Positions 2,857 to 7,920 of a stretch of 64,000 bases of DNA are shown here, one piece after another. The stretch is from Pseudoxanthomonas suwonensis. GTDB lineage: Bacteria > Pseudomonadota > Gammaproteobacteria > Xanthomonadales > Xanthomonadaceae. Under the pieces are notes generated by a model. That model saw only the letters and a program-made list of their open reading frames with translations. It did not search any database and had not been told where the DNA came from. The stretch spans positions 1-64,000 of the forward strand of contig NZ_PDWP01000023.1 in NCBI RefSeq assembly GCF_010093235.1. The letters are read 5' to 3'. The stretch's first letter is position 1. Each line of letters starts with the position of its first letter. Made by a program: the position numbers and the translations under genes.

Positions 2857-2888
2857 AGGCCGCCCGGCGTGGCAACGCCGGACGGCCT
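2857..2888 (-). terminator. Terminator of the fasciclin-DUF378 transcript
   Basis: AGGCCGCCCGGCGT pairs with ACGCCGGACGGCCT (one mismatch) around GGCA. On the minus strand it runs into CCTTTTG. It lies 33 bases after the DUF378 stop, so it closes that transcript before dcp. Confidence 0.7.
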
Positions 2889-2921
2889 GGGCTGGCGGGA
2901 CCGGGACGGCCGCCGCCGGGC

Positions 2922-3155
2922 TCAGCGGTGGGTATGGGCCTGGGCGTGGACCTCGCCGGTGTTGCCGGCGCGCAGCAGCGGTCCGATCTGCCACAGGGCG
3001 GACACGCCGACCAGGGTGTAGACCACCCGGGCCAGCGCGGCATCCTGGCCGCCGAAGATGGCCGCGACCAGGTCGAACTGGGCCAGGCCGACCAGGCCCC
3101 AGTTGATGCCGCCGATGATCACGAGGGCGAGGGTGATGAGGTTGAGGGTTTTCAT
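2922..3155 (-). CDS. DUF378 family small membrane protein
   Basis: 77 residues with two hydrophobic segments (about residues 5-35 and 42-62) and the DUF378 hallmark GGINWGLVGL near residues 15-24, plus FDLVAAIFGG. Family members are small inner-membrane proteins of unknown role. Its ATG follows a CGGAG-type ribosome site and starts 32 bases after the fasciclin gene stop, so the two are almost certainly co-transcribed. The C-terminus ends in a His-containing polar tail. Through the shared upstream region it may be controlled by the divergent cobalamin-binding MerR regulator. Confidence 0.85.
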   Translation of the reverse strand: MKTLNLITLALVIIGGINWGLVGLAQFDLVAAIFGGQDAALARVVYTLVGVSALWQIGPLLRAGNTGEVHAQAHTHR

Positions 3156-3187
3156 GCTGGACTCCGTGGGGTTGGGCGGGCCGATGC

Positions 3188-3733
3188 TCAGCCCTCGGGG
3201 ATGAGGACCGTGTCGATCACGTGGATGACGCCATTGCTCGCGGCGACATCGGTTGCAGTAACCCGGGCGCCGTCGACGGTCACGCCATCGCCGGAGGCGG
3301 CGATGGCCAGGTTCCCGCCCTGCACCGTGGTGGCCGAATCCATCGCGGCGACGCGCGATGCCGGAACCTTGCCGGGGACCACGTGGTAGGTGAGCACCTT
3401 CACCAGCTGCTGACGGTTCTCCGGCTTGAGCAGGTTCTCGACGGTGCCAGCCGGCAGCTTCGCGAACGCGGCGTCGGTGGGCGCGAACACGGTGAACGGG
3501 CCGGGACCCTTGAGCGTGTCGACCAGGCCAGCGGCCTTGAGCGCCGCGGCCAGGGTGTTGAACTGGCCGGCCGCCACGGCGGTATCGACGATATCGGCCT
3601 GGGCGCGGGTGTTGGCGCTGGTTGCCTTGGCGGTCTGGCCGGCGAAGGCCACGGGGCTGGCCAGGCCCAGGACGAGGGCGGCGGCCAGCACACGCAGCAG
3701 CTGCGGGCGGTTGGAACGGGCGTTGCGGGACAT
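3188..3733 (-). CDS. Secreted fasciclin (FAS1)-domain protein
   Basis: 181 residues: a signal peptide (hydrophobic core [20 protein letters not shown], cleavage after AFA) followed by one FAS1 domain. The FAS1 boxes are visible: [10 protein letters not shown] around residues 84-93, [10 protein letters not shown] around 120-129 and [13 protein letters not shown] at the end. FAS1 domains mediate adhesion or surface interactions; the specific role is unknown. The ATG at 3733 was chosen because it directly precedes a normal signal sequence; the longer frame upstream would run through the divergent regulator. It heads a two-gene transcript with the DUF378 gene. The putative operator at 3808-3824 lies 75-91 bases upstream. 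Confidence 0.9.
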
Positions 3734-3807
3734 GGACGGCTCCGGTGGTATTGGGGAACGTGTCCAGTCTTGGGGCGGCGCCGTTACCCGCATGTCCAAC
3801 CAGGCCA

Positions 3808-3824
3808 TGTACAAGCCATGTACA
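3808..3824. promoter_or_regulatory. Putative CarH/LitR-type operator: two TGTACA direct repeats at 11-bp spacing
   Basis: TGTACA occurs at 3808-3813 and again at 3819-3824, exactly 11 bases apart, inside the only divergent promoter region between the fasciclin operon and the MerR/B12 regulator. Known CarH operators consist of 11-bp direct repeats with a T..ACA core, and LitR-family sites are built on TGTACA. On the minus strand the left motif reads TTGTACA and could double as the -35 of the fasciclin promoter. A third repeat at the same phase is not convincing. Confidence 0.6.
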
Positions 3825-3847
3825 TCGCGTGCCCTAGCCTCCGCTGC

Positions 3848-4798
3848 ATGTATCCGGTCAAGGTCGCTTCCACGCTCACCGGGCTGACGCCCGAGACCCT
3901 GCGCGCGTGGGAGCGCAGGCACGCTGCCGTGGTCCCGCACCGCGAGGGCGGGCGGCGTCTGTACGACGCGACGATGATCGAGCGCATCACCCGCCTGCAC
4001 CGCCTGACCGCACGCGGCCATCCGATCCGCGACCTGGCGACGCTCGACGACGCGGCCCTGGATGCGCTGCTCGAGCAGAGCCGGCAGACCGGCTACGGAG
4101 CCCTGGAAACCCTGCCCGAGCGGATGCTGGACGCGGTGGCCGACTACCGCGTGGACCAGTTCGACCGCGACCTTTCGATCGCCATCGCCACCCTGCCGGT
4201 CCCGGTACTGGTGTCGCGGGTGGTGATGCCGCTGCTGCGCGAGGTCGGCCTGCGCTGGGCCGACGGCCGCCTGGCGATCGCCCAGGAGCGGCTGGTCAGC
4301 AGCCTGCTGCGCACGCGCCTGCTGTCGATCCTCAACCAGCATCCGCGCGAGCAGCGGCCGCGGGTGCTGTTCGCGACCCTGCCGGGCGAGCCGCACGAAC
4401 TGGGCCTGCTGGGTGCGGCGCTGCTGGCGTACGAGGCCGCCGCTCCGGTGCTCTACCTGGGCACCGAACTGCCGGCGGAGGAACTGGTGCGGGTGGCCAC
4501 GCGCCTGGATGCAGGTGCGGTGGCGGTCAGTTCGGTCGATCCGGGCCAGGCGCGCGAAGCGCTGGCGCAGCTGCGCGTGCTGGATGCCGGACTGCCGGCG
4601 CACGTGCCGGTCTGGCTGGGCGGCGCCAACGCGCGCTACCTGGGCGAGGACCTGGGGAGCGCGCGGGTGGAGGCGATCACCGATCCGCAGGCGCTGGCGC
4701 GGCGCCTGCAGCGGATGGAAGCGGCGGCCGCGCGCCGCCTGCGCGGGACAGGCGGCGGCGGACGACGCAAGGCGGTCAGTCCGCCAGCAGGCGGTTGA
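3848..4798 (+). CDS. MerR-family regulator with cobalamin-binding domain (CarH/LitR-like)
   Basis: 316 residues. Residues 1-70 are a MerR winged helix ([15 protein letters not shown]), about 85-165 a B12-binding helical bundle, and about 170-285 a Rossmann-type B12 domain. The lower axial ligand motif ExHxxG is intact (E181, H183, G186). The capping motif Wx9EH of AdoB12-dependent CarH is W137-x9-E147-R148, so the histidine is replaced by Arg, and the residue after the Trp is Ala rather than His. CarH/LitR proteins repress in the dark as AdoB12-bound tetramers and release DNA on photolysis; whether this one does so is inference. An in-frame ATG at 3818 would overlap the operator, so 3848 is preferred. 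Its 3' end overlaps htpG convergently by 23 bases. Confidence 0.87.
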
Positions 4799-6668
4799 TC
4801 CGCTGCACGAAGGCCGCCGGATCGGCCAGCGGCGCGCCGGCGGTCAGCTGCGCCTGCTCCAGCAGCAGCGTCGCCAGGTCGCCGGCCTGGGTCTCGTCTT
4901 CGGTCGCGCTGATCCGCTGCAGCAGGGCGTGGCGCGGATTGATCTCCAGCGTCGGCAGGCTTTCCGGCCCGGCCTGGCCAGCCTCGCGCAGCAGCCGCGC
5001 CAGGTGCGGCGCCATCTCGTACTCGGCCAGCGCCAGGCAGGCCGGCGAATCGGTCAGGCGCGCGGACACGCGCACGTCCCCGACCTTGCCGTCCAGCAGC
5101 TTCTTCAGCCGCTCCAGCAGCGGCGCGGCAGCCTGGGCAGCCTCCTCCTGCTGCTTCTTCTCGGCCTCGTCCAGCGGCAGCTCGCCCTTGGCCACGTGGC
5201 GCAGCGGCTTGCCGGCGTACTCGTGCAGGTGGCCGACCATCCACTCGTCGATCCGGTCGGACATCAGCAGCACCTCGATGCCCTTGCTGCGGAAGGCCTC
5301 CAGCTGCGGGCTGCCGGCGGCGGCGGCATGGCTGTCGGCGGTGACGTACCAGATCGCGTCCTGGCCGACGGCCATGCGCCCGATGTAGTCGTCCAGCGAC
5401 ACGGTCTGCGCCGCGTCCCCGCCACGGGTGGAGGCGAAGCGCAGCAGCTTCGCGATCCGCTCGCGGTTGGACGGATCCTCGACGATGCCTTCCTTGAGCG
5501 TGTTGCCGAAGGCCTTGAGGAAAGCGGCAAACTTCTCCGGCTCCTCGCGAGAGAGCTTCTCGATGAGGTCGAGCACGCGCTTCACGCAGGCGCCCTTGAT
5601 CCGCTCCAGCTGGCGGTTCTGCTGCAGGATCTCGCGGCTGACGTTGAGCGGCAGGTCGTCGGCATCGACCACGCCGCGCACGAAGCGCAGGTAGTTGGGC
5701 AGCAGCTCCTCGGCCGCGTCCATCACGAACACGCGCTTGATGTACAGCTTCAGCCCCTTGCGCTCGTCGCGCCCGCCCATGAGCACGTCGAACGGCGGCT
5801 GCGAGGGCAGGTAGAGCAGGGTGGTGAAGCTCTGGCTGCCCTCGACGCGGTTATGGGTCCACGCCGCCGGGTCGTTGAAGTCATGACCCAGCGACTTGTA
5901 GAAGCCGCGGTAGTCCTCGTCGCTGATCTCGTTCTTCGGCCGGGTCCACAGCGCCGAGGCACCGTTGACGGTCACCCACTCCGGCGCCTCGCCGTCCTTC
6001 GCTTCCTTCGGCATGCGGATCGGGAAGGCGATGTGGTCGGAGTACTTGCGTACCAGCGAGCGCAGCTTCCAGTCCTCGAGGAACTCGTCCTCGCCGTCCT
6101 TCAGGTGCAGCACGATGGTGGTGCCGTGGCTGTCGAGGGTGGCCGGCTCCAGGGTGTACTCGCCGCGGCCATCGCTTTCCCACTTCACGCCGGCCTCCGC
6201 CGGGGTGCCGGCGCGGCGGGTGAGCACGGTGACCCGGTCGGCGACGACGAAGGCCGAGTAGAAGCCCACGCCGAACTGGCCGATCAGGCGCGCATCAGCC
6301 TTCTGGTTCTCGCCGAGGGCCTCGAGGAAACGGCGGGTGCCGGAGCTGGCGATCGAGCCGATGTTGGCGATCACCTCGTCGCGGTCCATGCCGATGCCGG
6401 TATCGCGGATGCTCAGGGTGCGGGCATCCCGGTCGTGGCTGATCTCGATCCGCAGGTCGCCCTCGCCGGCCAGCAGCTCCGGCTTGCCGATGGCCTCGAA
6501 GCGCAGCTTGTCGCAGGCGTCGGAGGCGTTGGACACCAGCTCGCGCAGGAAGATCTCCTTGTGCGAGTACAGCGAGTGGGTCACCAGGTGCAGTACCTGG
6601 GCCACTTCGGCCTCGAACCGGCGGGTCTCGGAAGCGGGGGCGGACGTTTCGGTGGTCTCGGTGGTCAT
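4776..6668 (-). CDS. htpG: Molecular chaperone HtpG (Hsp90)
   Basis: 630-residue bacterial Hsp90, an ATP-dependent cytoplasmic chaperone. The GHKL ATPase motifs are present: [17 protein letters not shown], the glycine boxes DTGIGM and SSGTRRF, and [11 protein letters not shown], followed by middle and dimerisation domains of normal length. The ATG at 6668 places the conserved start [16 protein letters not shown] about 15 residues in, whereas the longer frame runs upstream into the promoter. A heat-shock type promoter lies 37-64 bases upstream. The stop overlaps the 3' end of the convergent MerR gene by 23 bases. Confidence 0.97.
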
Positions 6669-6704
6669 CGGAAGGTCCCTTGGGACGGGGAATGCAGGGG
6701 TCCG

Positions 6705-6732
6705 ATGTGTTGGCGGGACGGCCGTTTTCAAG
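6705..6732 (-). promoter_or_regulatory. Sigma-32 (RpoH)-type promoter of htpG
   Basis: On the minus strand CTTGAAA (6726-6732) matches the RpoH -35 consensus exactly. Thirteen bases further is CAACACAT (6705-6712), a partial match to the CCCCATNT -10 element. Position and gene function both fit heat-shock control. Confidence 0.65.
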
Positions 6733-6746
6733 GTGACGCGGCGCGC

Positions 6747-6846
6747 CGGCGCGTGGCCTGCCAATCTCCATGTCCCCCGGTCCGCCCCCCCGGCCAGAGC
6801 CTCTGCCTTTGCGTCCGGTCGCCAGGCCACGCGCCGCAGCGCTCCA
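6747..6846. repeat. 100-bp element with 14-bp perfect terminal inverted repeats
   Basis: CGGCGCGTGGCCTG at 6747-6760 is the exact reverse complement of CAGGCCACGCGCCG at 6833-6846, with 72 bases between. There is no coding potential inside. The structure resembles a small MITE-like or cruciform-forming element and sits between the htpG promoter and repeat array 1. Confidence 0.55.
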
Positions 6847-6858
6847 CGCATGGCTGCC

Positions 6859-7920
6859 GTAGCCCGGGTAAGCGCAGCGCACCCGGGGGTGTGTCCCGGC
6901 TACGATCCCGGATGCGGCCTTCGGCCTTATCCGGGCTACGCGACGGCGACGCCTCTGGCTTTTCCGGAAGGCTCCCGGCAACGGTCGAGGGCCGGGATGC
7001 GATGCCTGTTGCCCGGAAGTAAAGGAGGAGGCTCCGGCCTCGCGGAGGCCGGAGCCGGGGGACATGGAGGGCAGCAGGCATCGCGTCCCGGCGCCCAGCC
7101 ACGCCCCAGCCCGAGTCCGCGCTCCGTAGCCCGGGTAAGCGAAGCGATCCCCGGGACCACGCGGCCAGGCCACTACGGTGCAGGCCGCCGTAGCCCGGGT
7201 AAGCGCAGCGCACCCGGGGTGTGTCCCGGCTAACGGCCCCGGATGCGGCCTTCGGCCTTATCCGGGCTACGCGACTGCGGTGCTTCTGGCTTTTCCGGAA
7301 GGCTCCCGCACGGTCGAGGCGGGGATGCGATGCCTGTTGCCCGGAAGTAAAGGAGGAGGCTCCGGCCTCGTGGAGGCCGGAGCCGGGGGATGGAGGGCAG
7401 CAGGCATCGCGTCCCGACGCCCAGCCACGTCCCAGCCCGAGTCCGCGCTCCGTAGCCCGGGAATGCGAAGCGCGGCCAGACCGCTACGGTGCAATGGAAC
7501 CAGGCGCCGCCGTCCCCGCCCCGGATGCGGCCTTCGGCCTTATCCGGGCTACGCGACTGCGGTGCTTCTGGCTTTTCCGGAAGGCTCCCGGCAACGGTCG
7601 AGGGCCGGGATGCGATGCCTGTTGCCCGGAAGTAAAGGAGGAGGCTCCGGCCTCGTGGAGGCCGGAGCCGGGGGACATGGAGGGCAGCAGGCATCGCGTC
7701 CCGGTACCCAGCCACGCCCCAGCCCGAGTCTGTGCTCCGTAACCCGGGAAAGCGAAGCGCAGCCAGACCGCTACGGTGCAATGGAACTAGACGCCGCTGC
7801 CCCGCCCCGGATGCGGCCTTCGGCCTTATCCGGGCTACGCGACTGCGACGCTTCCCGGCGCCAGGGGACATGGAGGGCAACAGGCATGGCATCCCGGCGC
7901 CCGGCCACGCCCCAGCCGCT
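6859..7920. repeat. Repeat array 1: GTAG REP palindromes alternating with a 100-bp inverted-repeat module
   Basis: About three and a half tandem units fill the space between htpG and the ABC exporter. GTAG (or GTAA) heads lie at 6859, 7126, 7190, 7452 and 7739. Inverted REPs ending in CTAC close at 6939, 7270, 7552 and 7838. Between them lies a module (6992-7091, about 7320-7416, 7605-7704) whose 23-base ends (CCGGGATGCGATGCCTG...) are near-perfect inverted repeats around an inner hairpin built on GGCTCCGGCCTC. Only the right arm of a fourth copy remains near 7864-7900. GTAG-headed REPs are known from Stenotrophomonas and are linked to RAYT transposases; none is in the window. Frames crossing the array are Pro/Arg-rich chance frames. 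Confidence 0.85.

Follow-up and report, generated by a model that had tools for sequence, protein, structure and literature searches.

A CarH-related MerR regulator with a B12 domain, facing a FAS1–DUF378 gene pair across a conserved, putative three-half-site operator in Pseudoxanthomonas suwonensis

The first 64,000 nucleotides of contig NZ_PDWP01000023.1 of Pseudoxanthomonas suwonensis (this whole stretch is called the window here) carry a gene for a MerR-type regulator with a cobalamin-binding (B12) domain, which is divergent from a pair of genes encoding an adhesion-type fasciclin (FAS1) protein and a small DUF378 membrane protein, the common spacer being 114 bp long. Our analyses of this unit and of its relatives lead us to propose, with moderate confidence, that the regulator is a local repressor that descends from CarH stock, binds cobalamin, regulates its own gene and controls a FAS1 gene of the envelope or of photo-oxidative stress. 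In the mechanism envisaged, the regulator, as a CarH/LitR descendant, would bind cobalamin, most likely adenosylcobalamin (AdoCbl), in the base-off form through His183; the holo-regulator would oligomerize and, in the dark or under B12-replete conditions, would occupy a three-half-site operator in the spacer, shutting both its own promoter and that of the FAS1-DUF378 pair. If cobalamin were absent or its upper ligand cleaved, the regulator would be released, and production of the FAS1 protein, which is secreted, and of the membrane protein DUF378 would follow, probably as a response of the envelope, or by aggregation, to oxidative stress driven by light. Such a compact regulatory unit would have one recognisable site in the window genome.

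As the original prediction had noted, two TGTACA words lie exactly 11 bp apart in the spacer, at 3808 and 3819, and the full tandem 11-mers (GCCATGTACAA/GCCATGTACAT) are two exact repeats at 3804-3825. The two-repeat operator described there was an understatement, in that a third half-site, TGTCCA, lies 15 bp upstream of 3808, at 3793. The 3808/3819 pair is of the kind of the 11-bp T..ACA repeats of CarH (nnnnTnnACAn) to which it had been likened (PMC9304148, PMC8156234); the third site is placed at a 15-bp step. Alignment of 26 orthologous spacers, those of the most distant pair of loci (L066 and L067) being left out, gives the putative operator consensus TGTMCA-N9-TGTACR-N5-TGTACA together with an invariant GTTA. 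Site columns carry 1.97 bits of information on average versus 0.68 in 68 other spacer columns, a comparison in which the placement of the spacers was chosen to fit the sites and favours them, and in which GTTA and a second conserved block, AGTCTC, both unused for placement, raise the background. Loss of the repeats in relatives, which had been named as evidence that would speak against the prediction, was not what we found, the sites being kept in 24-25 of the 26 orthologues.

Within the window alone, the evidence for the two-site word is weak, because TGTACA-N5-TGTACA with up to two mismatches has one match against 0.34 expected, at least one match occurs in 27 of 100 shuffles, and single TGTACA words are commoner in the window than in the shuffles (9 versus 2.85). 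Across the whole genome (3.42 Mb) the word occurs at nine places with up to two mismatches, this site being the only exact one and the eight others having two mismatches each; with 17 places for the reversed-pattern control, the two-site word shows no enrichment on its own. What makes the operator convincing is its conservation among relatives. The three-site pattern, searched with up to three mismatches in 30 genomes, gave 42 matches against 10 for its reversed control; in 27 of 28 carriers they fall at the regulator-FAS1 promoter, some carriers having several that overlap, and five fall elsewhere. The remaining carrier (G303) has four mismatches to the pattern at this promoter, and in two genomes (G399 and G223) the match is made up of sites 2 and 3 together with one that overlies the regulator start. 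At the same threshold the pattern is absent from both sister genomes without the unit, and the sole match in the window's own genome is the site itself, so that no genome-wide regulon of the regulator was seen with this pattern. In that genome no further match to the regulator was found at E 0.001.

The distribution of the unit points in the same direction. In a survey of 395 family genomes, in which five candidates were scored per genome and some matches may be missed, regulator matches at E <=1e-5 were found in 32 genomes and 13 of 54 genera, namely the 28 with full-length loci, G302, G006, G009 and G129, the last holding only a distant relative (27% identity). The 27 other full-length regulators are 58-82% identical to the window protein. 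The divergent FAS1 and DUF378 pair had been noted, and a search of related genomes for the same arrangement proposed; both Pfam assignments held (Table 1), FAS1 is divergent from the regulator at every one of the 28 full-length loci, and 25 of the 28 genomes have DUF378, compared with PF04070 in 1/20 other genomes tested. The interval then given, 3188-4798, covers the regulator and FAS1 genes and leaves the DUF378 gene outside. As a control, FAS1 homologues without an adjoining regulator were taken from the genus, family and order: none of the 20 has an upstream TGTACA pair with up to two mismatches and none has DUF378 at its locus, whereas all 28 carriers pass the identical N5 pair test, so that regulator, operator and DUF378 go together. 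One control gene, L023, comes with an unpaired TGTACA, and about 3.5 kb from it lies a distant MerR-type gene of the same genome (G038). Among the best 80 of 475 named loci, 19 belong to the window clade, and 18 of these have FAS1 beside the regulator, L096 being without it; named carriers include Luteimonas, Lysobacter, Arenimonas, Vulcaniibacterium and Stenotrophomonas ginsengisoli, and it is from these named records that we take the surveyed family to be the Lysobacteraceae. It could be argued that the repeats are no operator and that the gene pair is a chance neighbour unrelated to the regulator, given that the repeat is only mildly improbable within the window and the two-site word is not enriched genome-wide against its reversed control; conservation, co-occurrence and the FAS1 control speak strongly against this explanation, which we consider extremely improbable, and a chance repeat is ruled out by operator conservation in the orthologues combined with the 0/20 control.

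Table 1. Genes of the unit and elements of the spacer, in window coordinates
Feature	Position	Strand	Remarks
DUF378 small membrane protein, 77 residues	2922-3155	-	second gene of the operon; PF04070, 1.5e-25
FAS1 (fasciclin) protein, 181 residues	3188-3733	-	PF02469, 1.2e-41
CGTTA, with conserved GTTA 7-10 bp before site 1	3782-3786		GTTA at the same place in 26/26 orthologues
Putative operator half-site 1, TGTCCA	3793-3798	-	reads TGGACA (TnnACA) towards FAS1; YGTMCA in 25/26 orthologues
Putative operator half-site 2, TGTACA	3808-3813		TGTACR in 25/26 orthologues
Putative operator half-site 3, TGTACA	3819-3824		exact TGTACA in 24/26 orthologues
MerR regulator with B12 domain, 316 residues	3848-4798	+	MerR_1, B12-binding_2, B12-binding

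The regulator is indeed a MerR protein with a cobalamin domain, as had been predicted: its ExHxxG motif at residues 181-186 reads E181-P-H183-E-L-G186, and its Pfam matches comprise MerR_1 (PF13411, 8.6e-13), B12-binding_2 (2.2e-9) and B12-binding (PF02310, 4.6e-8, residues 172-269). The recognition helix corresponds to the MerR pattern RxWERRY, with L18-R19-A20-W21-E22-R23-R24 invariant in a 12-row alignment and the Tyr position occupied by His in 26/28 rows. According to a review, CarH homologues are defined by a B12 motif together with Wx9EH (PMC8156234), and an intact Wx9EH has been used as the criterion separating CarH from CarA (PMC9304148). The window protein matches the B12 motif, ExHx2Gx41SxV/Tx22-27GG, its own signature ExHx2Gx41SxVx27GG being intact over residues 181-259 with S228 and the GG at 258-259. 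The cap, on the other hand, reads W137-A138-x8-E147-R148, that is Wx9ER rather than Wx9EH, as it does in all 28 full-length loci (WAx8ER in 26, WSx8ER in one and WVx8ER in one). The lower-ligand His, cap Trp and cap Glu are present in 28/28 aligned proteins, and the score against the NCBIfam CarH equivalog NF052513 is 110 bits, below the cut-off of 400. In a quick tree with 81 rows (one truncated locus, L153, having been left out; the row of Thermus thermophilus CarH, TtCarH, sits on a long branch and is of unsure place), the Lysobacteraceae clade forms one group of 20 with support 100, in which every member has ER and His never follows the Trp; the remaining 61 rows comprise 37 with WHx8EH, 21 with WHx8ER and three single variants. 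Among the papers listed, our literature search found none using the term Wx9ER and none on a CarH/LitR-FAS1-DUF378 unit, most subscription journals being outside its coverage and some of the searches returning mostly noise.

The residues replaced are those to which the light response of CarH has been ascribed. In TtCarH, Trp131 stacks on the adenosyl group and Glu141 bonds to it, His177 is the lower ligand and His132 is the upper ligand of the light state, giving a bis-His form (PMC10442372). The His132 position holds Ala, Ser or Val among the 28 proteins, Ala in the window. The likeness to TtCarH (phmmer 1.1e-23 against 5c8d) extends to the MerR helix-turn-helix, the four-helix bundle, the Rossmann B12 domain with its lower-ligand His, the cap Trp and Glu and the 11-bp TnnACA repeats; beyond the two cap positions, the window unit differs in the 15-bp step of its operator and in having FAS1-DUF378 as divergent target. 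Because the lower-ligand motif is intact but both upper-face histidines are gone, AdoCbl binding by the window regulator is plausible and a classical CarH photoswitch doubtful; on sequence grounds B12 binding is better supported than light release, which, if it occurs, is predicted not to take the bis-His route of Thermus CarH. The earlier assignment as a CarH/LitR-type B12 regulator is not supported in the sense of a photoreceptor, given Wx9ER in 28/28, 110 versus 400 bits and Ala at the bis-His residue, and the earlier view of the gene pair as controlled by light or B12 is a supposition.

It is possible, although we think it unlikely, that the protein is a true AdoCbl photoreceptor, in which light would break the Co-C bond and dissociate the oligomer, so that green or blue light would induce FAS1-DUF378 without His132 or His142. 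CarH ancestry and the 11-bp repeats are consistent with this, as is the presence of a facing FAS1 gene in five distant relatives with WHx8EH, and FAS1 genes have been reported in photo-oxidative responses (RSP_1409, PMC7074977; Azospirillum, PMC10949492). Reports on the H132A variant of TtCarH diverge: it retains AdoCbl binding and the tetramer and mostly stays tetrameric after light, whereas other authors had earlier reported its disassembly in light (cited in PMC10442372). Another CarH-like MerR protein without His at the bis-His position, CtMerR, has Arg there and still loses its adenosyl group in light (PMC11796333); unlike the window protein, it keeps the EH signature, which is ER in 28/28 of the loci studied here, and in the latter both upper-face histidines are gone.

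TGTACA is its own reverse complement, and orientation can be read from variants alone. At site 1 the fourth base is A in 16 and C in 10 of the 26 orthologues, a variation that keeps the TnnACA core only if the site is read towards FAS1 (TGKACA) and so gives its orientation; at site 2 of the Lysobacteraceae the last base is G in 13 and A in 12, and neither orientation fits cleanly. Five distant WHx8EH loci with a divergent FAS1 (L134, L145, L147, L148 and L155) carry TGTCAA-N5-TGTACA-N9-TRKACA-N5-TGRACA, in which the outer left site is TTGACA towards FAS1 and the outer right one TGRACA towards the regulator. The arrangement that we infer is one of two 11-bp pairs that face opposite ways and meet at a 15-bp step. 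This 11/15/11-bp array was found in five of eight tested loci of the distant WHx8EH group, and three of the eight, without a FAS1 match, show no exact TGTCA-N6-TGTACA start. The operators known for CarH have been described as tandem repeats of 11 bp, accompanied by pseudorepeats and markedly plastic, and those of CarH repressors overlap promoters (PMC9304148).

A regulator that works without B12, of the CarA or class II LitR type, in which the B12 fold would act as a dimerization or partner platform and an antirepressor would give the signal, appears improbable to us. The altered cap motif is what might be expected of it, and Myxococcus xanthus CarA, in which the Rossmann B12 motif is likewise kept and the cap motif broken, works without B12; CarA lost the Trp side and kept EH (PMC9304148), however, whereas the window protein keeps W137 and has R148 in place of the His. 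Class II LitR proteins of Pseudomonas (PplR1, PmlR2) belong to the same family, and one uses paired TGTACA sites, but they have only the four-helix bundle, an N12 spacing and a short LOV partner (PMC9758184), in contrast to the intact Rossmann domain and the N9 and N5 spacings of the window unit. A class II LitR with a LOV partner was set aside on domain content (PF02310 at 172-269) and spacing. Genes beyond the unit are mostly unshared among the 18 named loci compared, and no such gene is common to most of them, which speaks against a linked antirepressor, although a partner could be encoded elsewhere.

MerR proteins commonly activate, and a classical activator that switches on FAS1 from the same sites, for instance by way of an unusual spacer in the promoter, would account for the promoter appearing in need of help: no good -35 element was recognised by eye upstream of GTTA (TAAC on the FAS1 strand), and no clear sigma-70 -35/-10 pair was seen, again by eye, for either gene. 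The sites lie between both starts and near that of the regulator, as in the promoter-overlapping operators of CarH (PMC9304148), and the characterised relatives are repressors, making activation quite improbable in our view. The conserved GTTA is perhaps a core promoter element of FAS1. The AGTCTC block (GAGACT on the FAS1 strand) lies 22-27 bp before site 1 in the 26 spacers, with A at -27 and T at -23 in 25/26, and is perhaps near the FAS1 transcript start.

With respect to the cobalamin-binding repressor, the host probably has the chemistry it would call for. The window genome has a PduO-type adenosyltransferase, as do 48/48 genomes, and CobA/BtuR, found in 4/48, has no match in it; AdoCbl is probably made in the host from some cobalamin source, and the PduO-type transferase rules out lack of AdoCbl as an argument against an AdoCbl sensor. 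Two other proteins of the genome have B12 domains, MetH and one that combines a B12-binding with a MeaB domain.

Several observations weigh against this repressor and its supposed role. Wx9EH has been called critical for AdoCbl binding and function (PMC8156234), and with Arg for His at the end of the cap, the ability to bind AdoCbl could be lost. In 11/28 loci the B12 motif departs from the strict SxV/T spelling (17/28 pass), by eye seven with SxI, two with SxM and two with Gly for Ser; 26/28 pass a looser form. Most of the family lacks the unit, the 32 of 395 genomes with any match including those with remnants, and DUF378 is missing from 3/28 carriers. The window FAS1 protein, whose N-terminus resembles by eye a Sec signal peptide, has its best solved-structure matches in generic FAS1 proteins (human TGFBI, 1.3e-57), ahead of chain 1w7d (1.6e-45), which we take to be of Rhodobacter sphaeroides type, and of the AstaP chains (2e-15 at best); this order marks it as a generic FAS1 domain, for which pigment binding is not indicated by sequence alone. 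In favour of the supposed role, FAS1 proteins have independent links to photo-oxidative stress. RSP_1409, a fasciclin of R. sphaeroides, is an RpoE target. It rises under photo-oxidative stress (PMC7074977), and a fasciclin of Azospirillum brasilense mediates flocculation under RpoE-ChrR control (cited in PMC10949492); the window protein resembles these FAS1 proteins of photo-oxidative stress responses, but its gene adjoins one for a MerR-B12 regulator. Against a light-related role, the fasciclin gene of the phototroph Sediminicoccus KRV36 was reported as not expressed in light-shift transcriptomes (PMC10949492).

A more speculative extension, which we put forward tentatively, is that the Lysobacteraceae hold a clade of CarH descendants without upper-face His chemistry (His142 to Arg; His132 to Ala, Ser or Val) that would act as cobalamin-status sensors, or as photosensors with a new release path, having as sole target the FAS1-DUF378 unit, in whose operator two pairs of 11-bp half-sites would face opposite ways across the 15-bp step. 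The FAS1 protein could then counter photo-oxidative damage by binding pigment or by aggregation, as reported for the Azospirillum protein and for algal AstaP, a FAS1 carotenoid protein induced by photo-oxidative stress. The natural series WHx8EH, WHx8ER and WAx8ER offers a test of the roles of the two upper-face histidines of CarH, with a likely target and operator known, and the tie of FAS1 and of the orphan membrane family DUF378 to a B12-domain regulator makes the physiological role of DUF378 testable.

The unit is accessory. Outside it lie, on the minus strand, frames 594-2741 and 4776-6851, which we take from their sequences to encode an M3-type peptidase and HtpG (htpG), respectively. 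In the sisters G006 (C1 ~3338.9 kb, L017) and G009 (C4 ~33.5 kb, L018), only the 3' end of the regulator is left, from about residue 248, between the M3 peptidase gene and htpG; the deletion removed about 2870 to 4600 in window coordinates, with one common junction and 116 identical bases before it. Insertion instead of deletion was rejected, since the 3' regulator end persists, the single junction is common to both and the regulator of Luteimonas mephitis (L079) adjoins htpG, just as the window regulator does. The unit has apparently decayed a second time in G302 (C10:594938-595675, L068), where a truncated, rearranged regulator has DUF378 close by, and neither a FAS1 match nor TGTACA was found at the locus.

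Some minor features of the loci may be recorded. Three Luteimonas loci (L080 2130-2564, L082 2173-2637 and L109 2126-2596) have a second FAS1 gene on the same strand downstream of DUF378. Among the WHx8EH relatives, L143, L144 and L152 have a similar site array and no FAS1 match, the divergent gene of L143 resembling by eye a secreted amine-oxidase-type flavoprotein. Upstream of WHx8ER regulators, L103, L114, L125 and L126 (and nearly L102) share, by eye, a GGGGTCACTCGTC block, and L114 has a divergent frame that looks like a short-chain dehydrogenase. In the window itself, the region upstream of the htpG frame (6857-7917) holds direct repeats of 240 nt (two copies, 95%), 137 nt (three copies) and 73 nt (four copies), mostly spaced 282-331 bp.
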